A stretch of DNA of 38,102 bases from Clostridia bacterium (GTDB lineage Bacteria; Bacillota; Clostridia; Christensenellales; Aristaeellaceae), in NCBI GenBank assembly GCA_030529995.1, contig JAUMVT010000019.1, positions 1 to 38,102 of the forward strand. Direction: 5' to 3'. Position numbers and translations under genes: made by a program. Below are positions 6,821 to 38,102 of the stretch, one piece after another. Numbering within the stretch: position 1 is the stretch's first letter; each line of letters starts with the position of its first letter. The notes under the pieces were generated by a model. The model searched no databases. It was not told the origin of the DNA and worked only from the letters and a program-made list of their open reading frames with translations.

Positions 6821-8350
6821 GTGGACAAGCTGGAGACGCTGAAGTATTACTTCGGTCACAATACTTTCCGCCCCGGACAGGAAACACTGGTGGATGCTCT
6901 CCTTGCCCGTCGGGATGCTCTGGGCATTATGCCTACCGGCGCGGGGAAAAGCATGTGCTATCAGATTCCTGCCTTAATGACCCCGGGCATTGCGCTGGTG
7001 ATTTCGCCCCTGATTTCCCTCATGAAGGATCAGGTCATGAGCCTGATTGCCTCCGGCGTGCCTGCCGCCTATCTGAACAGCAGCCTGACTCCGAAGCAGC
7101 TGGATCTTGCTACGGAGCGTGCCTGTCAGGGGGCGTACCGCATCATTTATGTGGCGCCGGAGCGGCTGGATACCCTGTCCTTCCGCCGATTCGCCATGCA
7201 GGCGCCCATCAGCCTGATTGCCGTGGACGAAGCGCACTGCGTCTCCCAATGGGGGCAGGATTTCCGCCCCAGCTACCTGAAGATTGCCGACTTTATCGAA
7301 TCCTTGCCTAAGCGTCCTCCGGTGGGGGCGTTTACGGCCACGGCCACCAGCAAGGTGCGCAGCGACATCATCCGCCTACTGCGGCTTCAGCATCCGGTGG
7401 AAGCTTCCACCGGCTTTGACCGTCCCAATCTGTTCTTTGACGTGCTGCGTCCCAAGGATAAGGAGGCAGCCCTGAAAGATCTGCTGCGGAAGCGGAAAAA
7501 TCAAAGCGGCATTATTTACTGCGCCACCCGGCGAAATGTGGAGGAAGTGGCTGTCAAGCTGGAAAAGGCAGGATATCAGGTCGGTACTTACCATGCCGGC
7601 ATGAGTGACCGAAACCGGCAGGAGAATCAGGAAGCCTTTCAGGAGGATCGGATTCAAATCATGGTGGCCACCAATGCTTTCGGCATGGGCATTGATAAGT
7701 CCAATGTGAATTATGTGATTCACTACAACATGCCCCGCTCCATGGAGGCCTACTATCAGGAGGCAGGCCGTGCCGGACGGGACGGCAGCAAGGCGGACTG
7801 CATTCTGCTTTACAGCGGTGCGGACATCTTCACCGCCAAGTGGATGATTGACCACGCAGAGCCCAATGAAGCATTAACCCCTGAGGAGCGGCAGGCAGTG
7901 CGGCAGGAAGACCTGCGGCGCATGGAGGATATGATTACCTACTGCACCGGGGGCACGTGCCTGCGGAGCTATATTCTCCGTTACTTCGGGGAGAGGGCTC
8001 CGGATACATGCACCACCTGCGGCAACTGTGTCCGGGATCAGGCACGGGAGCATCTTTTCCCGTTCAAGAAAAAGCCTGCCGTCCCCAAGCAGGAAGAGGA
8101 ACAACCGGTGGATCCGGACAACCTCTTCGAACTGCTGCGGCACTGCCGGCTGGAGCTTGCCCGGCAGAATCATGTGCCTCCTTATATGATCTGTGCGGAC
8201 AAGACCCTGCTGGACATGGTGCGCAAACGTCCCCGCAATCCGGACGAAATGCTGGATGTGGACGGCATGGGCGTAAAGAAGATCGGCAAGTACGGATCGG
8301 CTTTCCTGCTGGTACTTCGCCGGTATGCGGCCAGCCATCCCGGGGGTTGA
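6821..8350 (+). CDS. recQ: ATP-dependent 3'-5' DNA helicase RecQ, short form
   Basis: Unwinds DNA in recombination and fork repair. SF2 motifs are intact: Gln20 in RPGQ, Walker A PTGAGKS (38-44) and DEAH (136-139). The zinc subdomain has Cys375, Cys380, Cys397, Cys400 and Cys403. A C-terminal HRDC domain starts near residue 434. Only about 30 charged/proline residues separate the last zinc cysteine from HRDC, so the winged-helix (RQC) module found there in E. coli RecQ, which is about 100 aa longer, is absent. The start is GTG 6821, seven bases after AAGGAGG. The stop codon overlaps the -35 box of the plsX promoter. Confidence 0.95.
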   Translation: MDKLETLKYYFGHNTFRPGQETLVDALLARRDALGIMPTGAGKSMCYQIPALMTPGIALVISPLISLMKDQVMSLIASGVPAAYLNSSLTPKQLDLATERACQGAYRIIYVAPERLDTLSFRRFAMQAPISLIAVDEAHCVSQWGQDFRPSYLKIADFIESLPKRPPVGAFTATATSKVRSDIIRLLRLQHPVEASTGFDRPNLFFDVLRPKDKEAALKDLLRKRKNQSGIIYCATRRNVEEVAVKLEKAGYQVGTYHAGMSDRNRQENQEAFQEDRIQIMVATNAFGMGIDKSNVNYVIHYNMPRSMEAYYQEAGRAGRDGSKADCILLYSGADIFTAKWMIDHAEPNEALTPEERQAVRQEDLRRMEDMITYCTGGTCLRSYILRYFGERAPDTCTTCGNCVRDQAREHLFPFKKKPAVPKQEEEQPVDPDNLFELLRHCRLELARQNHVPPYMICADKTLLDMVRKRPRNPDEMLDVDGMGVKKIGKYGSAFLLVLRRYAASHPGG

Positions 8351-8375
8351 AATCTTTTCACGGTTCTGTTAAAAT
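8347..8375 (+). promoter_or_regulatory. Promoter of plsX-acpP
   Basis: TTGAAA (8347-8352), 17 bases, TAAAAT (8370-8375). The -35 box overlaps the recQ stop codon. A hairpin (TTTTGTC/GACAAGG, about 8395-8414) lies in the leader. No FapR-type palindrome was recognised. Confidence 0.65.
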
Positions 8376-8455
8376 AAAGTGTCAATCTATCGCCTTTTGT
8401 CCCAGGGGACAAGGGGTTCCTTCTTCATTTGTCATCATCCTAGGAGGACGAAACC

Positions 8456-9463
8456 ATGCGTATTTTCCTGGATGCCATGGGTGGCGACAACGCCCCTCAG
8501 GCTCCCGTCGAAGGTGCCATCGAGGCTCTTCGGCGTTTCCCGAACCTTGAAATTTCTCTCGCCGGCAAGCTGGATGCCATCACCCCTCTGCTGGCGGATG
8601 CGGAGGACGTTCGCAGCCGCATCACCTTGGTGGATGCACCGGAAGTGATCACCAATGATGAAAGCCCGGTCATGGGTGTGCGCACCAAGAAGCAGTCCGC
8701 CACGGTGATCGGCATGCTTCAATTGCGGGATCAGCAGGTGGACGGCTTTGTGTCTGCCGGGTCTACCGGTGCGGTGCTGGCCGGCGGCATGTTCCGCCTG
8801 GGGCGGATTCCCGGGGTGGAGCGTCCTGCTCTGGCACCTTTGCTGCCCAACGGCAAGGGTCACTTTCTGCTGATTGACTGCGGCGCCAATGTGGACTGCC
8901 AGAGCGACTGGCTGGTGCAGTTCGGCATCATGGGCAACGCCTACATGAAGGGCGTTATGGGCATGCAGGAGCCTCGTGTGGGGCTGATTAACATCGGCGC
9001 GGAGTCCGAAAAGGGCAACAAGCTGGTGAAGGAAACCTATCCCAAGATGGAAAATGCGCCCTATCACTTCATCGGCAATGTGGAAGCCCGGGACATTACC
9101 GGGGACGCGGCGGATGTGCTGGTGTGCGACGGCTTCAGCGGCAACCTGATCCTGAAGTTTATGGAAGGCGTAGCCGGCACCCTCATGGGCATGATTAAGA
9201 AAGAAATGATGGCAGATACCCGGGGTAAGGTGGCAGGGGTGATTGCCAAGCCTGCCTTCCGCCGGGTGAAGAAGGCCATGGACTACACCGAAGTGGGCGG
9301 CGCCCCCTTGCTGGGTGTGAACGGTGCGGTGACCAAGGCGCACGGCTCTTCCAACGGCCATGCCATTGCCTGCGCCATTGCCCAGTGCATGAAGATGGTG
9401 GACGGTCACGTGGTAGACATTATCCGGGACGGCATGGAAAAGCTTGCCGCCGAAGAAGCGTAA
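8456..9463 (+). CDS. plsX: Phosphate acyltransferase PlsX
   Basis: Converts acyl-ACP and phosphate to acyl-phosphate, the acyl donor for PlsY in phosphatidic acid synthesis; a peripheral membrane-associated cytosolic enzyme. The 335 aa match the family length. The N-terminal signature MRIFLDAMGGDNAP and the conserved GSTGAVLAGG, DCGANVD and CDGFSGN(L)ILK motifs are all visible. TAGGAGG precedes ATG 8456. acpP, its substrate carrier, begins 58 bases after the stop, and rnc follows; this plsX-acpP-rnc order is common in Firmicutes. Confidence 0.96.
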   Translation: MRIFLDAMGGDNAPQAPVEGAIEALRRFPNLEISLAGKLDAITPLLADAEDVRSRITLVDAPEVITNDESPVMGVRTKKQSATVIGMLQLRDQQVDGFVSAGSTGAVLAGGMFRLGRIPGVERPALAPLLPNGKGHFLLIDCGANVDCQSDWLVQFGIMGNAYMKGVMGMQEPRVGLINIGAESEKGNKLVKETYPKMENAPYHFIGNVEARDITGDAADVLVCDGFSGNLILKFMEGVAGTLMGMIKKEMMADTRGKVAGVIAKPAFRRVKKAMDYTEVGGAPLLGVNGAVTKAHGSSNGHAIACAIAQCMKMVDGHVVDIIRDGMEKLAAEEA

Positions 9464-9521
9464 GGCATTTTTCCCGCAAGGGATTATGCATAGAATGGAT
9501 CCGTGAAAGGAGTATATGAAC

Positions 9522-9749
9522 ATGATTTTTGATACGGTTAAGAAGATGATCGCTGCTCAGCTGAAGGTGGATGAAAACACCGTGACCCGTGAGTCCCGCC
9601 TGGTGGAGGATCTCCACGCTGACTCTGCCAACGTAATGGTCATGATTATGGATCTGGAAGACAAGTTCGGCATCGTGGTGGAGGACGACCAGATCATGAA
9701 GCTGAAGACCGTGGGCGACGTGGTGGACTACATCGAGAAGAATCAGTAA
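9522..9749 (+). CDS. acpP: Acyl carrier protein
   Basis: Carries fatty acyl chains on a 4'-phosphopantetheine arm. A 75-aa acidic four-helix protein; the modified serine is Ser35 in DLHADSANVMVMI (most ACPs have DSLD, here DSAN). The start is taken at ATG 9522 because AAAGGAG (9506-9512) is nine bases upstream and MIFDTVKKMI fits the family. An in-frame ATG at 9516 is only three bases from that site. It is co-transcribed with plsX and followed by a terminator. Confidence 0.95.
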   Translation: MIFDTVKKMIAAQLKVDENTVTRESRLVEDLHADSANVMVMIMDLEDKFGIVVEDDQIMKLKTVGDVVDYIEKNQ

Positions 9750-30119: not shown

Positions 30120-30147
30120 GAAAATCAGTTAGGCTTAGGGCAGCGTG

Positions 30148-30181
30148 CGGGAGGAACTTTTGACACAAAAGTTTCCTCCCG
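30148..30181. repeat. Extragenic hairpin repeat, copy 2 (TTTTGACACAAAAG core)
   Basis: CGGGAGGAACTTTTG (30148-30162) pairs with CAAAAGTTTCCTCCCG (30166-30181) across ACA, with one bulged T. It shares its core with the hairpin at 49-86. It follows tgt by 28 bases and lacks a U-run. Confidence 0.65.
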
Positions 30182-30234: not shown

Positions 30235-30263
30235 TTGACACGGAATTTTCTTGGCGGTATAAT
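30235..30263 (+). promoter_or_regulatory. Promoter of the flavinylation operon
   Basis: TTGACA (30235-30240), 17 bases, TATAAT (30258-30263): a perfect sigma-A promoter, so the operon should be well expressed. The roughly 90-nt leader has stems GAATC/GATTC (30271-30286) and GGCGGC/GCCGCC (30288-30304); no known riboswitch class was recognised. Confidence 0.9.
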
Positions 30264-30364
30264 AGACCATGAATCTGTATGGATTCAGGCGGCTTCATGC
30301 CGCCGATGCAGAATGAACAATTCCGGTCGGCTCTGCCTTCCGGTGATATACCGACAGGATGAAA

Positions 30365-30736
30365 ATGAGCAAAAAGAACTGGATGATTCCCGGCTTGCTG
30401 GTGCTGGCAGCGGTGGTGCTGCTGCTGATTACTTACTTCGGGGGTATTACGAAGGCAGAGGAAGACATGGTGATCATCACCGTGAACGGTGAGGAGTATG
30501 CCCGTATCCCTCTGTCCAGCCCTCAAACGGTGACCATTGACCAGGGAGACGGAATCGTCAATGTGGTGGAAATCAGCGACCACGGCGCCGTGATGCTGTC
30601 CTCCACCTGCGATAACCAGCAGTGCGTCCACATGGGCGAGGTCACGCTGGATAACTGGGAGACCCGACCCAATCAGGCGTTCATCATCTGCCTGCCCCAT
30701 CGGGTAACTGTGGAATTGGCGGTGAAGGAAGAATGA
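30365..30736 (+). CDS. Membrane-anchored NusG_II domain protein
   Basis: A 123-aa protein with an N-terminal membrane anchor (about 7-27) and one extracytoplasmic NusG domain II (PF07009/DUF1312) at about 33-120. Family features are visible: SSTCDNQQCVHMG with Cys82, Cys87 and His89, then ICLPHRV with Cys109. These Cys/His residues could form a disulfide or bind a metal or cofactor. The start ATG 30365 is preferred over 30359 because AGGA is then suitably spaced. Its stop overlaps the apbE start region (ATGATGA). NusG_II proteins recur beside ApbE and FMN-binding proteins in anaerobes; the precise role is unknown. Confidence 0.88.
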   Translation: MSKKNWMIPGLLVLAAVVLLLITYFGGITKAEEDMVIITVNGEEYARIPLSSPQTVTIDQGDGIVNVVEISDHGAVMLSSTCDNQQCVHMGEVTLDNWETRPNQAFIICLPHRVTVELAVKEE

Positions 30737-31731
30737 TGAAACGAATCCTGTGTGCCCTGATGGTGCTGATGATGCTCCTGGGGCTGAGCGGCTGCGCTGC
30801 GGCAAACACCACCGTGGAAAAGACTACGGCCACCGGCTTCTACTTTGATACGGTGGTAACCCTGACCATCTACGGCGGGGAGGAAGGCTTGACCGATACC
30901 CTCCTGGCGGAGTGTGACCGGTATGAAAAGCTGCTGAGCAAAACCATTGAGGGCAGCGATGTCAGCCGCATCAACAACGCCCACGGGGAAACGGTGACCG
31001 TGGATGCGGAAACCTGGCAGATCCTGAAGCGAGCCAAGGAAATCAGCGACCTGACCGGTCATGCTTTTTCCGTGACCATTGCCCCCCTGACGGCCATGTG
31101 GGACTTTACCGGCGGTACCATGCGGATGCCTACGGATGAGGAGCGGATTGCTGCCCTTTCACTGGTAGACGATGACAAGCTGGTGCTGGGGGAAAACAAC
31201 ACTGTCACCCTGCCAGAAGGCATGGAGATCGACCTGGGCGGCATTGCCAAGGGCTACATTGCCGATCAGCTGGCAGCCATGGTTCGTGGCAAGGCGAAGA
31301 GCGCCTTGCTGAACTTCGGCGGCAACGTGTATGCCGTGGGGGAGAAGACCGACGGCAGCGCCTTCCGGGTAGGCATTTGCGACCCGACCAACACCTCCAC
31401 CCAGCGGGCGGTGGTGCAGGTGAAGGATCGCACGGTGGTGACCAGCGGCACCTATGAGCGGTTCTTTGTGAAGAATGGGGTAACCTACCATCACATTCTG
31501 GATCCGAAAACCGGCTCCAGTGCCGTGACGGATCTGACCAGCGCCACCATTGTGGGCACCAGCTCCATGGATGCGGATGCCTTTGCCACGGCCTGCATTG
31601 TGCTGGGCAAGGAAGGCGCCCTGAAGCTGCTGGAGGACAATGGGCTGGACGGGGTGCTCATTGACACGGACAACCAAGTAACGGCCACATCCGGCTTTGC
31701 GGATCATTATCCGCTGAGCGTGGTGGAATAA
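30736..31731 (+). CDS. apbE: ApbE-family FAD:protein FMN transferase, lipoprotein
   Basis: Transfers FMN from FAD onto a Thr/Ser of target proteins through a phosphoester, outside the membrane, using Mg2+. 331 aa with a lipoprotein signal ending LSGC (lipidated Cys20). Family motifs are complete: ETWQILKRAKEISDLTGHAFSVTIAPL, DLGGIAKGYIADQL (from Asp166), LLNFGGNVYAVG, TSGTYERF, HILDPKTG (His253) and the metal-site SMDADAFAT (Asp279, Asp281). The start is ATG 30736 (or 30733), overlapping the preceding stop, so the two are coupled. The next gene encodes seven ApbE-type target motifs and is its obvious substrate. Confidence 0.95.
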   Translation: MKRILCALMVLMMLLGLSGCAAANTTVEKTTATGFYFDTVVTLTIYGGEEGLTDTLLAECDRYEKLLSKTIEGSDVSRINNAHGETVTVDAETWQILKRAKEISDLTGHAFSVTIAPLTAMWDFTGGTMRMPTDEERIAALSLVDDDKLVLGENNTVTLPEGMEIDLGGIAKGYIADQLAAMVRGKAKSALLNFGGNVYAVGEKTDGSAFRVGICDPTNTSTQRAVVQVKDRTVVTSGTYERFFVKNGVTYHHILDPKTGSSAVTDLTSATIVGTSSMDADAFATACIVLGKEGALKLLEDNGLDGVLIDTDNQVTATSGFADHYPLSVVE

Positions 31732-31779
31732 ATGGATTCATTAAACAACGGGGAAGGTTCCCCGATGGAGGGACATCGC

Positions 31780-34263
31780 ATGGAAAACAATACGCCCAAG
31801 AAAAAGCAGTTTCCGGCCTATGTGACCCTGACCATCATTGCAGTGATCGCTGCGGTGGTGCTGGCTGCAACCAACCAGCTGACCAAGGGCCCCATTGCGG
31901 AACATGAAATGGCGGCATTGAAGGAGACCTTCGGCACGGTCATGCCTGCCGAGAGCTATGAGCAGGTTGACTTGGATGCTGCCTACACCGATGACGGTGT
32001 GGACAGCCTGTACAAGGCACTGGATGCAGACGGCAATCTGGTGGGCTATTGCGTGAAGGCAGCCAAGACCGGTTATGCCAACAGCGTGGCCGTGACCTTG
32101 GGCGTGAATACCGATGGTACCGTAGCCGCCTGCGTGGTGGGCGATACCAACTTCCAGGAAACTGAGACCTTGGGCGGCCGCTGGAAGAAGGAAGAAAATC
32201 TGGAGCAGTTCAAGAGCCTGAGCGCTGTGGACGGCGGCAGCATTGAAGCCCTCAGCGGCGCTACCGTAACCTCCAAGGCCGTGTTGGGCGCAACCAATGC
32301 TGCCCTGAAGTGCGTGGCAGAGGTTGCCCTGAATGCCAGCCAGACGACGGAAGTCGCCTTCGGCGAGGGCAAGACCACCACGACCGCTTCTCAGCCTGCC
32401 CTGACCGGCGAAGTGCACACCGGCACCGCCAAGGGCTTCGCCAGCGATGTGACCGTCAGCGTTACCTTGGATGAGAACAACACCGTGACCGGCATCCGCA
32501 TCGATGCCAGCGGCGAGACCGCAGGCTTCGGCCAGCGTACCATGGAGGATGCAGACTATCAGGCACAGTTTATCGGCAAGACCCTGCCCCTGCAGGATGG
32601 GGACGTGGATGTGCTCAGCGGCGCAACCTTCACCTCGAACGCTGTGGTGGAAGCTGTGAATGCGGCACTGGAAGCACCTGCCACCGAGTATGAAACCATG
32701 GTGGGCACTGCCAAGGGCTTCGGCGGAGACGTAACCGTGACCCTGTCCATGGATGGGGATACCATTGCGGCCATCAGCATTGACGCCTCCAGCGAGACCC
32801 CCGGTTTCGGTCAGCGCACCATGGAGGATGCGGATTATCAGGCACAGTTCATTGGCAAGACCCTGCCGGTGGAAGGCGTGGATGCCCTTAGCGGTGCAAC
32901 CATTACCTCCACTGCTGTGGTGGAAGCCGTGAACAGCGCCGTGAAGACGGACGCTGATGCAGCGGAAGAGCCCGCTGCTCAGACAGAAGAAGCAACCGCC
33001 GCTCCCGTGGCGGAAGCCACCGGCACGCCTGTGACCGGCACGGCCAAGGGCTTTGCCAGCGATGTCACGGTGACCGCTACCGTGGATGACGGCGTGATCA
33101 CCTCCATCACCATCGATGCCAGCGGCGAGACTGCCGGTTTCGGCCAGCGTACCATGGAGGATGCGGACTATCAGGCACAGTTCATCGGCAAGACCCTGCC
33201 CCTGAAGGACGGGGATGTGGATGTGCTCAGCGGCGCAACCTTCACCTCTAACGCTGTGGTGGAAGCACTGAACAGCACCGTAACCGAAGAAGCAACTGAA
33301 GAACCTGCTGCTCAGACGGAAGAAGCCACAGCCGCTCCCGTGGCGGAAGCCACCGGCACGCCTGTGACCGGCACGGCCAAAGGCTTTGCCAGTGACGTCA
33401 CGGTGACCGCTACCGTAGACGGCGAAGTGATCACCTCCATCACCATTGATGCCAGCGGTGAGACTGCCGGTTTCGGCCAGCGTACCATGGAGGATGCGGA
33501 TTATCAGGCACAGTTCATCGGCAAGACCCTGCCCCTGAAGGACGGGGACGTGGATGCGCTCAGCGGCGCAACCTTCACCTCCAATGCTGTAGTGGAAGCA
33601 CTGAACAGCACCGTTCCTGCCTCCATGCCTGAGGAAGAGGAAGGGGAAGCTGTCACCGCCGTTGGCGAGGCACAGGGCTTTACCAGCACCGTGACGGTGA
33701 CCGCAACCCTGGACAGCGAAGGCAAGATTACCGCCATCACCATTGATGCCAGCGGCGAAACCCCCGGTTTCGGTCAGCGCACCATGGAGGATGAAGACTT
33801 CCAGAACCAGTTCATCGGCAAGACCGGTCCCTTCACCCTGGGTGAAAATGTGGATGCCCTGACCGGCGCAACCATTACTTCTACCGCTGTGGTGGAAGCA
33901 CTGAACAATGCCGCCGTGCCTGCCGATGCAGCCGAGGACGAAGCCACTGCCACTGACCTGGCTACGGCCACGGATGCGGCCACCGCTACCGACCTGCCCC
34001 TGGAGGCAGAGGCGGACGGCTTTGCCAGCAAAGTGAAGGTTACCGTTACCTTGGATGCAGACGGTGCCATCACCGACATCACTGTGGATGCCAGCGGCGA
34101 GACTGCCGGTTTCGGTCAGCGCACCATGGAGGATGAGGATTTCCTTGCCCAGTTTATCGGCAAGAAGCTGCCCCTGACCCTGGGCGAGGACGTGGACGCC
34201 CTCAGCGGCGCAACCCTGACTTCCACCGCCATTGTGGAAGCACTGAACAGCTTGGTGAAGTAA
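31780..34263 (+). CDS. Membrane-anchored protein with seven FMN-binding (flavinylation) domains
   Basis: An 827-aa extracytoplasmic protein. An N-terminal transmembrane anchor (about 11-34) is followed by an RnfG-like FMN_bind domain (about 40-180, with NFQETETLGG) and six shorter FMN_bind domains. Each ends in an ApbE acceptor motif [S/T]GATxTS; acceptor threonines are 162, 283, 374, 487, 598, 698 and 812. The short domains share GFGQRTMEDADYQAQFIGK. Thr/Ala/Glu-rich linkers (PAAQTEEATAAPVAEATGTP, ATATDLATATDAATATD) separate several. Seven covalent FMNs would make an electron-transfer chain or capacitor at the cell surface, as in Listeria PplA, which has two. The start ATG 31780 is chosen for GGAGGG seven bases upstream. 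A CGGGGAA/TTCCCCG hairpin (31749-31764) lies between it and apbE. Confidence 0.9.
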   Translation: MENNTPKKKQFPAYVTLTIIAVIAAVVLAATNQLTKGPIAEHEMAALKETFGTVMPAESYEQVDLDAAYTDDGVDSLYKALDADGNLVGYCVKAAKTGYANSVAVTLGVNTDGTVAACVVGDTNFQETETLGGRWKKEENLEQFKSLSAVDGGSIEALSGATVTSKAVLGATNAALKCVAEVALNASQTTEVAFGEGKTTTTASQPALTGEVHTGTAKGFASDVTVSVTLDENNTVTGIRIDASGETAGFGQRTMEDADYQAQFIGKTLPLQDGDVDVLSGATFTSNAVVEAVNAALEAPATEYETMVGTAKGFGGDVTVTLSMDGDTIAAISIDASSETPGFGQRTMEDADYQAQFIGKTLPVEGVDALSGATITSTAVVEAVNSAVKTDADAAEEPAAQTEEATAAPVAEATGTPVTGTAKGFASDVTVTATVDDGVITSITIDASGETAGFGQRTMEDADYQAQFIGKTLPLKDGDVDVLSGATFTSNAVVEALNSTVTEEATEEPAAQTEEATAAPVAEATGTPVTGTAKGFASDVTVTATVDGEVITSITIDASGETAGFGQRTMEDADYQAQFIGKTLPLKDGDVDALSGATFTSNAVVEALNSTVPASMPEEEEGEAVTAVGEAQGFTSTVTVTATLDSEGKITAITIDASGETPGFGQRTMEDEDFQNQFIGKTGPFTLGENVDALTGATITSTAVVEALNNAAVPADAAEDEATATDLATATDAATATDLPLEAEADGFASKVKVTVTLDADGAITDITVDASGETAGFGQRTMEDEDFLAQFIGKKLPLTLGEDVDALSGATLTSTAIVEALNSLVK
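32965..33614 (+). repeat. 333-bp tandem repeat inside the multi-flavin gene (domains 4 and 5)
   Basis: Bases 32965-33281 and 33298-33614 align without gaps at an offset of exactly 333 bases (111 codons) and differ at few positions, mostly silent. Each unit contains a linker, one FMN_bind domain and one SGATFTSNAVVEALNST motif. The near identity points to a recent in-frame duplication, unlike the more diverged domains 2, 3, 6 and 7. Confidence 0.85.
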
Positions 34264-34272
34264 ACACAACCG

Positions 34273-34306
34273 AAAAGGAGACCGTCATGACTCGGTCTCC
34301 TTTTTT
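34273..34306 (+). terminator. Terminator of the flavinylation operon
   Basis: AAAAGGAGACCG (34273-34284) pairs with CGGTCTCCTTTT (34293-34304), followed by further T. Confidence 0.88.
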
Positions 34307-36598: not shown

Positions 36599-36850
36599 AT
36601 GGCTGTTTCTTATAGACGTTTGTGGGAACTTCTGGCTGATAAAAAGATAAGTGCGGCTGACCTCCGCAAGGCTTCCGGGGTAGCACCGAATACGATGACA
36701 AGGCTGCACCGTGACGAGGAAGTTTCCTTGGATGTGCTCGGCAGGATTTGCAGCGTGCTCCATGCAGATTTCGGAGATGTGGTCGAATATGTTGATGAAG
36801 GGAATGAGCAGCATGACACCGGAGGAAAAAGCTCGGCAGACAATCGATGA
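36599..36850 (+). CDS. XRE-family helix-turn-helix regulator
   Basis: An 83-aa DNA-binding protein. MAVSYRRLWELLADKKISAADLRKASGVAPNTMTRLHRDEEVSLDVLGRICSVLHADFGDVVEYV is a complete Cro/C1-type HTH of the compact kind found with mobile elements and restriction-modification genes. ATG 36599 is used, with GAAGGTGAT upstream. It overlaps the following methyltransferase gene by 38 bases. It probably acts as the controller of the module, acting on the palindrome in its own promoter, so that methylase expression is timed. Confidence 0.9.
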   Translation: MAVSYRRLWELLADKKISAADLRKASGVAPNTMTRLHRDEEVSLDVLGRICSVLHADFGDVVEYVDEGNEQHDTGGKSSADNR

Positions 36851-37784
36851 AAAATTGATCGATGTTAGCAGCTACCCGGTTGCGCAGGTGCTGGATGTGC
36901 TGCTTCAAGATAAAACGACAAAGAAGAACATCATATGGGCGACCGATACCTATGAGGAGTTTGGCGAGAAATTCACGGACAAGGTGCAGCTGGATGCAAA
37001 CGCCTTCCTGCAGCGACCCGACATCATCCGCCCACGCATACAGAAGTCGCAGGAGGCGCAGGCCCAGCGGACGCGAAAAAAGGCGGAGGTATTCACGCCG
37101 GCATGGCTTTGCAATCAGATGAACAATCATTGCGATGCCGACTGGTTCGGACGCAGCGGCGTGTTCAACACGGAGAATGCCGACCATACTTGGACGGTGT
37201 CGGAGGGGAAAATTGAATTCCCGAAAAAAAAGAAGTGGCAGCGCTATGTGGATTCCCGCCGGCTTGAAATCACCTGCGGTGAGGCGCCGTACCTTGTTTC
37301 CCGATACGATGTATCAACGGGAGAGCTGATCGTCCCGCCCATACGGCGCATTGGAATGCTTGACCGTAAGCTGCGCATCGTGAACGAGAATACGGAGGGC
37401 TATGACGACTGGCTGAAATGGACGATCCGTGCATTTGAGGCCTGCTACGGCTATGAGTATCAGGGCGACAATGTGCTGATTGCACGAATCAATCTGCTGC
37501 TGACCTTTATGGATTACTACGAGGAACGCTGGGAGCGGCGGCCGGACGACAAGCTCCTGCGGCAGATGGCGAACAAGATTGCCTGGAACATCTGGCAGAT
37601 GGACGGGCTGAAGGATACCGTACCGCTCGGAAGACCATATGAAGAATGTCACCAGATGATGCTCCTTGATATATTCGGGGATATGGGAGTCGAAAAAGAC
37701 GGTGAGCCGGAAGCCGTGCCGTGCAGGATATTGAACTGGAGAAGCAAAAACTCCATACTTTTCAAAAAGCTGAAGGAGATGTGA
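36813..37784 (+). CDS. Restriction-modification DNA methyltransferase, motif X/I part
   Basis: A 323-aa protein carrying the first part of an N6-adenine methyltransferase of the Eco57I/type IIG kind: motif X-like VFTPAWLCNQM (from Val93) and a SAM-binding motif I variant EITCGEAPYL (TCGEAPYL at 154-161), followed by LDRKLRIVNEN and YGYEYQGDNVLIARINLLLTFMDYYEERW. The catalytic NPPY motif is missing here and occurs in the next gene. The start ATG 36813 has AAGGG ten bases upstream and lies inside the XRE gene. The stop TGA (37782-37784) is followed after one codon by the next ATG in the same frame. Base composition is lower in GC than the chromosome to the left. Confidence 0.8.
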   Translation: MTPEEKARQTIDEKLIDVSSYPVAQVLDVLLQDKTTKKNIIWATDTYEEFGEKFTDKVQLDANAFLQRPDIIRPRIQKSQEAQAQRTRKKAEVFTPAWLCNQMNNHCDADWFGRSGVFNTENADHTWTVSEGKIEFPKKKKWQRYVDSRRLEITCGEAPYLVSRYDVSTGELIVPPIRRIGMLDRKLRIVNENTEGYDDWLKWTIRAFEACYGYEYQGDNVLIARINLLLTFMDYYEERWERRPDDKLLRQMANKIAWNIWQMDGLKDTVPLGRPYEECHQMMLLDIFGDMGVEKDGEPEAVPCRILNWRSKNSILFKKLKEM

Positions 37785-37787
37785 GCC

Positions 37788-38102
37788 ATGGGAAAGAAAT
37801 TGTTTGATTATGTGATTGGAAATCCGCCGTATAACGAGGATTTTGAAAACTCGGGAGATAACGGTAATTTTGCAAAGCCCGTTTATAACAATTTTATGGA
37901 CGCCACCTACGAGGTGGCAGAAAAAGTGGAACTCATCCACCCCGCTCGCTTTCTCTTTAACGCTGGAAGTACGCCAAAGCCATGGAACGAAAAAATGCTT
38001 AATGACGAGCATTTTAAAGTTATGAAGTATGAAGCTGATTGCACAAGGGTCTTCCCCAACACGGATATTAAGGGCGGTATTGCAATCACTTACCGAGATA
38101 AG
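37788..38102 (+). CDS. Eco57I-type DNA methylase, NPPY part (cut off by the window end)
   Basis: The first 105 residues are visible and the frame is still open at the window edge. MGKKLFDYVIGNPPYNEDFE contains the catalytic motif IV (Asn12-Pro-Pro-Tyr15) of N6-adenine methyltransferases, and HPARFLFNAGSTPKPWNEKM and VFPNTDIKGGIAITYRDK are typical of Eco57I-family methylases that may be fused to an endonuclease. AAGGAG (with nine bases of spacing) precedes ATG 37788, so independent translation is likely. It probably works together with the preceding motif I protein as one split enzyme. Confidence 0.85.
   Translation, partial: MGKKLFDYVIGNPPYNEDFENSGDNGNFAKPVYNNFMDATYEVAEKVELIHPARFLFNAGSTPKPWNEKMLNDEHFKVMKYEADCTRVFPNTDIKGGIAITYRDK

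Follow-up and report, generated by a model that had tools for sequence, protein, structure and literature searches.

Which electron donor and which acceptors does a protein with seven flavin-binding domains serve? The question is raised by a three-gene operon in the window, the whole 38,102-nucleotide contig JAUMVT010000019.1 of the Clostridia bacterium draft genome GCA_030529995.1. A preliminary description of the window had listed a perfect promoter, a NusG_II protein, an ApbE lipoprotein and a protein with one RnfG-like and six short FMN_bind (FMN, flavin mononucleotide) domains, and had seen no Rnf complex with them. Our analysis indicates that the operon is likely to make and mature the external subunit of the cell's own Rnf, a displaced, multi-flavinylated RnfG that would carry Rnf electrons to extracytosolic acceptors. 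The elements of the operon, in window coordinates, are as follows.

30235..30263, + strand: sigma-70-like promoter, TTGACA-N17-TATAAT, consensus match 12/12
30359..30736, + strand: membrane-anchored NusG_II (DUF1312) protein, 125 aa, N-terminal transmembrane helix; PF07009 72.7 bits, cut-off 29.6
30733..31731, + strand: ApbE, FAD:protein FMN transferase (FAD, flavin adenine dinucleotide), lipoprotein with LSGC lipobox; PF02424 272.8 bits, cut-off 25.6
31780..34263, + strand: the carrier, RnfG plus six extra FMN_bind domains by prediction, 827 aa, N-terminal transmembrane helix; seven PF04205 stretches, seven acceptor threonines
31780..32379, + strand: putative RnfG proper, residues 1-200, transmembrane helix and FMN domain with acceptor Thr162; assigned with 7zc6_G and an RnfG model from relatives
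32434..34257, + strand: six tandem short FMN_bind domains with linkers; genome scan, repeats, motifs and predicted model
34273..34304, no strand: 12-pair stem-loop from the stem-loop scan, possible terminator

First domain of the carrier

All seven PF04205 domains of the carrier exceeded the cut-off in the genome scan (47.4 to 70.6 bits), the lowest being the first (residues about 98-177, 47.4 bits). Each holds one [S/T]GAT motif (7/7), with acceptors at Thr162, 283, 374, 487, 598, 698 and 812. The repeats first proposed from the letters of the window are thus confirmed as FMN_bind domains by profile search.

The first domain aligned with TIGR01947 over positions 2-186 of its 187. An RnfG model was built as a profile of 17 single-domain RnfGs whose genes lie between rnfD and rnfE in the genomes of relatives, the window protein being excluded, and was run on fetched loci of the genome containing all 25 of its FMN_bind matches; separate RnfG gene models, used for mapping the stretches of relatives, were seeded with the window protein. 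Residues 1-200 reached 125.1 bits with the RnfG model (positions 20-214 of 220), and the next-best FMN_bind protein of the genome reached 69.2 bits (positions 61-206 of 220). The solved RnfG chain 7zc6_G matched the N-terminal part of the carrier collinearly (E 8.3e-12, residues 9-178 on 5-180), as did a second chain, 9eri_G, with residues 1-200 (E 1e-9), and RnfG and NqrC chains ranked first in a fold search with the whole carrier model. Like these canonical RnfGs, the carrier begins with a transmembrane helix and an FMN domain with an SGAT acceptor, and the alignment stays collinear for about 170 residues. Judged by sequence, therefore, residues 1-200 are an RnfG, comprising the membrane anchor and its FMN domain. 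A canonical RnfG has one FMN domain and is usually encoded between rnfD and rnfE, whereas the carrier has seven and is encoded elsewhere.

The next-best protein, 365 residues long and encoded on contig C61, could instead be the true RnfG, the seven-flavin protein then being something else. It has an N-terminal hydrophobic stretch, as judged by eye, and ranks second with the RnfG model. Its score is 56 bits worse than that of the carrier N-domain, it covers the model only partially, and the part ahead of its FMN domain scores as coiled coil. We rejected it as RnfG on score and partial coverage, and hold it to be very improbable in that role.

The short FMN_bind domains are duplicated copies: their DNA copies are 60-92% identical to reference copies and mostly 280-340 nt apart, the closest pair sharing 92% identity over 300 nt. 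The predicted carrier model shows a long N-terminal helix (residues 13-54) and seven compact domains with low-confidence linkers between them (mean predicted local distance difference test score 71.7, predicted template modelling score 0.29, seven sequences in the alignment). Other multi-flavinylated proteins have been described as beads on a string, and the predicted domain string of the carrier resembles that form (PMC11334425). Hydropathy peaks at residues 11-29 and the N-terminus is rich in lysine; from the charges, the FMN domain would lie outside the membrane. Cysteines occur at 91, 118 and 178 only, and a scan of the 827-aa sequence found no CxxCH heme motif and no LPxTG sortase motif. 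The 37 bits with PF03544 (TonB_C) over the whole carrier, of which no single stretch passes, we take as an effect of the repeats.

Rnf cluster of the genome

PF03116 found a single RnfD in the draft genome, on contig C81, surrounded by rnfC-D-E-A-B; the carrier gene lies on contig C66. The original picture of an operon without Rnf, which we rejected on finding RnfD, therefore fails at the genome level, and in some relatives the genes adjoin rnfC. No rnfG was found in the C81 cluster, none of the 25 FMN_bind matches of the genome (0/25) lying on that contig. An assembly gap cannot have removed a gene between rnfD (8022-8963) and rnfE (8956-9597, both on stretch L013), as the two overlap by 8 bp. 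The one Rnf cluster that we found in the genome is thus without rnfG, and the carrier is most likely its missing external subunit. This accords with the earlier suggestion that electrons could come from an unlinked membrane enzyme.

RnfG in relatives

Sixty genomes (the one studied here, 35 of its family and 24 of its order) were searched for RnfD, ApbE, RnfG and NusG_II, and the fetched stretches were mapped. An RnfG (G) was called displaced when none lay between rnfD and rnfE. RnfD was present in 49 genomes, including that of the window. In 28 of these each mapped RnfD was followed by, or fused to, a G; in the other 21 the D-to-E cluster had none. Outside the slot, TIGR01947 was matched over its full length (E <= 1e-9) in 20 of the 21 genomes with a G-less slot versus 0 of the 28 others (Fisher p 7e-13, computed without correction for relatedness). 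In the exception, G021, the gene of an FMN protein, cut short, lies immediately upstream of rnfC, and G012 has two displaced candidates. The 11 genomes without RnfD gave no TIGR01947 match at E 1e-9 either. Six outgroup genomes with RnfD (G042, G048, G050, G052, G053 and G058) were also without such a match, and in these our own model does find a G between D and E; therefore, the lack of a match at E 1e-9 is not proof of absence.

In six genomes (G001, G004, G006, G010, G018 and G028) the displaced G shared a stretch with rnfC and lay upstream of it; in five (G000, G012, G013, G023 and G025) it was clearly separate, with both genes inside contigs; in the remaining genomes contig ends leave its distance to rnfC unsettled. 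Since the rnfC contig starts with a cut FMN_bind fragment beside rnfC in G008, G009, G021, G029 and G034, the G of these five probably sits just upstream of rnfC. Gene orders include NusG_II-EetB-protein without Pfam match-ApbE-G-FAD synthetase-rnfC-rnfD in G004 and ApbE-FAD synthetase-G (11 domains)-NusG_II-rnfCDEAB in G010.

In a tree of 54 G domains, its root set for drawing only and the label "away" meaning that rnfC was not on the same fetched stretch, the 21 displaced domains (from 20 genomes) formed one side of a branch with support 82/98, present in 76% of 200 bootstrap trees. The window protein grouped with those of G002, G023 and G032 (100/99), all three of which carry NusG_II-ApbE-G, the gene order that the preliminary description had proposed to look for in related genomes. 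These data suggest that G probably left its slot once, and the maps and tree together indicate that in some lineages the displaced G, ApbE and NusG_II separated from rnf as a group. Extra FMN domains are also found in RnfGs that remain in the slot, namely those of G024, G031, G033 and G055, with four or more each.

RnfD and RnfG are fused in one open reading frame (ORF; 526-572 aa) in five genomes (loci L131, L133, L134, L135 and L137; tree group 95/92), and L138 holds a sixth, shorter fusion of 480 aa. Second rnfD-G-E-A clusters occur at L132, L139 and L140; neither rnfC nor rnfB was found on the stretches fetched there.

A different explanation would make the carrier a stand-alone extracellular wire like PplA, a lipoprotein, receiving its electrons from some other donor in the membrane (Ndh2/quinone or a NapH-like iron-sulphur (Fe-S) protein); its likeness to RnfG would be ancestral only, and Rnf would work without it. 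We regard this as unlikely. Rnf would then have no RnfG at all, even though a protein of this kind is present in 20 of the 21 genomes with a G-less slot; the N-domain is a full-length RnfG, more than FMN_bind; the tree group of the carrier includes copies directly upstream of rnfC; and the carrier, unlike PplA, has no lipobox, being held by a transmembrane anchor instead. The points in its favour are that the operon has no transmembrane electron donor, that NapH-like proteins exist in the genome, and that the genome has a homologue of EetB, known from the Listeria extracellular electron transfer (EET) cluster (PMC9973259). We return below to Rnf as the putative donor.

Flavin delivery

A search of the draft genome for ApbE gave a single match, the ApbE of the operon, and the link to ApbE-catalysed flavinylation stands. 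With the NCBIfam equivalog for the E. coli type this ApbE scored 120.8 bits, below the cut-off of 498. In NusG_II, Cys84, Cys89 and Cys111 are invariant across 23 aligned sequences. Its model (predicted local distance difference test score 92.8) matched 4esn best; below E 0.001 the fold search returned only DUF1312 and NusG proteins (4esn, Lin0431, 4obi and Aquifex NusG), and hence no function. NusG_II may be EetA, an equivalence for which we found no confirmation: neither name, EetA or PF07009, occurs in the main text of PMC8238504, and NusG/PF07009 was not found in the related literature listings.

EetB (PF07456) had been described as lacking nearby, which holds for the window and not for the genome, where it lies on contig C72 (9755-10177) directly after a second NusG_II gene. 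In Listeria it is the substrate-binding subunit of an FAD exporter, and in 572 genomes, which are mainly those of Clostridia, it has been reported adjoining genes for Rnf (PMC9973259). Searching with this ApbE also gave 236 matches, of which the best 80 were taken as named loci (many of the stretches short); these overlap the genome set (the content of L183 is that of G023), and the sets cannot be treated as independent. In 18 of the 80 a multi-domain RnfG accompanied ApbE, 12 of them with NusG_II by our own model, and rnfC or rnfD was found on the fetched stretch, in many cases a short one, in 0 of the 18. All 18 are records of uncultured Clostridia or Clostridiales, with ruminant guts as the source of several, and include one Christensenella sp. 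UBA2853 (L178) and one Candidatus Excrementavichristensenella (L190). NusG_II was found in 38 of the 80. Because it adjoins EetB in 24 of these 38 and in the genome of the window, NusG_II looks like part of a flavin-delivery module and not the carrier's sole partner, as had been supposed.

A gene for FAD synthetase (PF06574) stands beside apbE or a multi-domain rnfG at L121:11518-12204, L155:7227-7898 and L145:5195-5788, an arrangement that would fit a local supply of FAD for ApbE. ORFs of 333-383 aa with signal-like N-termini lie between or near EetB/NusG_II and ApbE at L145:1532-2533, L108:4604-5752, L154:7898-8926, L158:6494-7549 and L100:12032-13030; of the three scanned, none reached a Pfam cut-off.

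Possible acceptors

The 25 FMN_bind domains of the genome are spread over 17 proteins, with seven in the carrier. Twelve proteins combine FMN_bind with FAD_binding_2 (fumarate-reductase superfamily), most with signal-peptide-like N-termini by eye; two of them have two FMN_bind domains and one is cut by a contig end. The others are two proteins with C_GCAxxG_C_C and an N-terminus that by eye resembles a Tat signal, one coiled coil and one small protein. Across genomes, other FMN_bind domains had a median of 2 with a multi-domain RnfG (n=26) and 0 with a single-domain one (n=23; p 1e-4), and were likewise more numerous with multi-domain RnfG within the family (23 versus 10 genomes, p 0.0014); these tests describe an association with phylogeny ignored. 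The counts are whole-genome matches minus mapped RnfG domains, entered by hand, with different models and some cut contigs. Where a genome carries eight or more other FMN_bind domains, its RnfG is multi-domain in every case (7/7).

The tail could also be a flavin capacitor, an electron buffer or reach-extender for Rnf itself that exports nothing to other enzymes. The number of domains ranges widely, from 2 to 11, as would be expected if the repeat were loosely selected, and six of the 26 genomes with multi-domain RnfG (G004, G008, G011, G033, G046 and G052) have no other FMN_bind domain, from which it follows that reductases cannot be the sole acceptors. The seven genomes richest in other FMN_bind domains argue the other way, as does the window protein, in which all seven acceptor motifs are kept, and we give buffering alone a small probability. 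Export of electrons by the tail to extracytosolic acceptors is the better-supported course, though by no great measure; that these acceptors are mainly the FMN_bind reductases has a little less than an even chance.

The six genomes just named weigh against a displaced RnfG that feeds external acceptors, as does the purely associative nature of the domain counts, and further points do the same. The N-domain alone scored 71.9 bits with TIGR01947, for which the curated cut-off is 102; several in-slot RnfGs of relatives miss that mark as well (G005 77.8, G041 71.2), and the 276 bits of the whole carrier are raised by repeats. The branch of displaced G domains falls short of the 95/80 mark of the tree tool and is not starred. 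Among the 21 displaced G domains, three have a single FMN domain; displacement and lengthening are therefore separate events. The draft is 92% complete, and from this genome alone an rnfG could lie in the unseen part. The carrier gene is unlinked to rnfCDEAB, and assembly of its product with RnfCDEAB is putative. Two NapH-like membrane Fe-S proteins (contigs C32 and C53) are possible donors; neither gene adjoins an FMN_bind gene on the stretches read. With these points taken into account, the 827-aa protein is still very probably the working RnfG of the cell's Rnf.

The NapH-like protein of C32 (L257:3510-5422) adjoins an AhpC/TSA-family redoxin with a signal-like N-terminus, and the pair is possibly another outward electron path of this genome.

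Proposed mechanism

In the mechanism that we propose, FAD would leave the cell through an EetB-type exporter encoded on contig C72, and ApbE would use it to attach FMN to the seven threonines of the carrier, as well as to RnfD and the exported reductases. The N-terminal RnfG domain would dock on RnfD, RnfA and RnfE and, as in a canonical RnfG, take electrons from the extracytosolic side of the RnfA/E [2Fe-2S] cluster. Canonical RnfG has been proposed to shuttle between RnfA/E and RnfD with electrons on its FMN (PMC12174285). Electrons could return to RnfD, giving the ordinary ion-pumping path from ferredoxin to nicotinamide adenine dinucleotide (NAD+), or could run along the six tethered flavin domains to extracytosolic acceptors, the extra domains on their linkers exchanging electrons with the FMN of the RnfG domain and with outside partners. 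The likeliest acceptors would be the 12 fumarate-reductase-like FMN_bind/FAD_binding_2 proteins.

Comparison with known systems

Multi-flavinylated RnfGs inside rnf clusters, and a second electron path to extracytosolic acceptors, were proposed by Meheust et al. 2021 (PMC8238504), a survey that calls the role of multi-flavinylated clusters generally unclear. The carrier resembles those RnfGs in being lengthened by extra FMN_bind domains and differs in that its gene lies away from rnfCDEAB, beside NusG_II and ApbE. Seven domains fall within the known range, up to 13 having been reported there. The same survey labels a cluster RNF when RnfB is present, a label that the window operon would escape. 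The multi-domain RnfG and the idea of a second path are thus already published (PMC8238504), and the displaced gene with ApbE appears to be the new part. In open PMC papers, mostly judged at the abstract level and supplements aside, we found no description of an RnfG whose gene stands with ApbE outside the rnf cluster.

Like the Listeria EET module (PplA, FmnB, EetA and EetB; PMC9973259), the system has an ApbE-type transferase, a predicted flavinylated external carrier and an EetB homologue in the genome; unlike it, the carrier is a membrane-anchored seven-domain RnfG, EetB is on another contig and Rnf is the putative donor. SaFMN3 and CbFMN4 also have FMN_bind domains joined by flexible linkers, as predicted in the carrier, with three and four flavins, respectively, versus seven domains, and neither is placed in an Rnf complex in the available text of PMC10339131. 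Fold matches of the carrier model include CbFMN4 domain 1 (E 0.013) and SaFMN3 domain 2 (E 0.039).

Operon layout and neighbouring sequence

The three-gene layout under a perfect promoter stood up to checking: three promoter-like sites were found versus 1.8 expected in shuffles, and only that at 30235-30263 scores 12/12, while the Pfam matches of the genes exceed their cut-offs. Terminator-like sites as a class were not above chance (5 found versus 4.7 expected). The start of apbE overlaps the stop codon region of NusG_II (30733 versus 30736). At full extent the ORF of the FMN protein spans 31732-34263 (843 aa); the start at 31780 (827 aa) is preferred because GGAGGG lies upstream and relatives begin at a matching MENN.

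Just upstream of the promoter, at 30147-30181, a TTTTGACACAAAAG palindrome is flanked by GCGGGAGGAA and TTTCCTCCCG arms; the palindrome is seen again at window position 60 and at L016:8740. At 36711-38102 two successive ORFs, the second with an NPPY motif, resemble by eye a DNA methylase/restriction system cut by the contig end; the first gave no Pfam match.

Significance

If the carrier is a displaced RnfG, one class of multi-flavinylated clusters gains a defined source of electrons and becomes open to direct testing, and Rnf complexes judged by gene neighbourhood can be scored as lacking RnfG. Exported flavin reductases are reportedly used in gut-bacterial respiration, although our literature search did not bring this up. 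If the tail does feed such reductases, it would suggest a route, by way of Rnf, on which these anaerobes could respire organic compounds from outside the cell. More tentatively, Rnf may have been rebuilt in this Clostridia family as a respiratory outlet: RnfG would have left its slot, probably once, gained a flavin chain of variable length and become a tethered hub for many exported flavoprotein reductases, and ion pumping would be coupled to the reduction of external metabolites and not to that of NAD+ alone.

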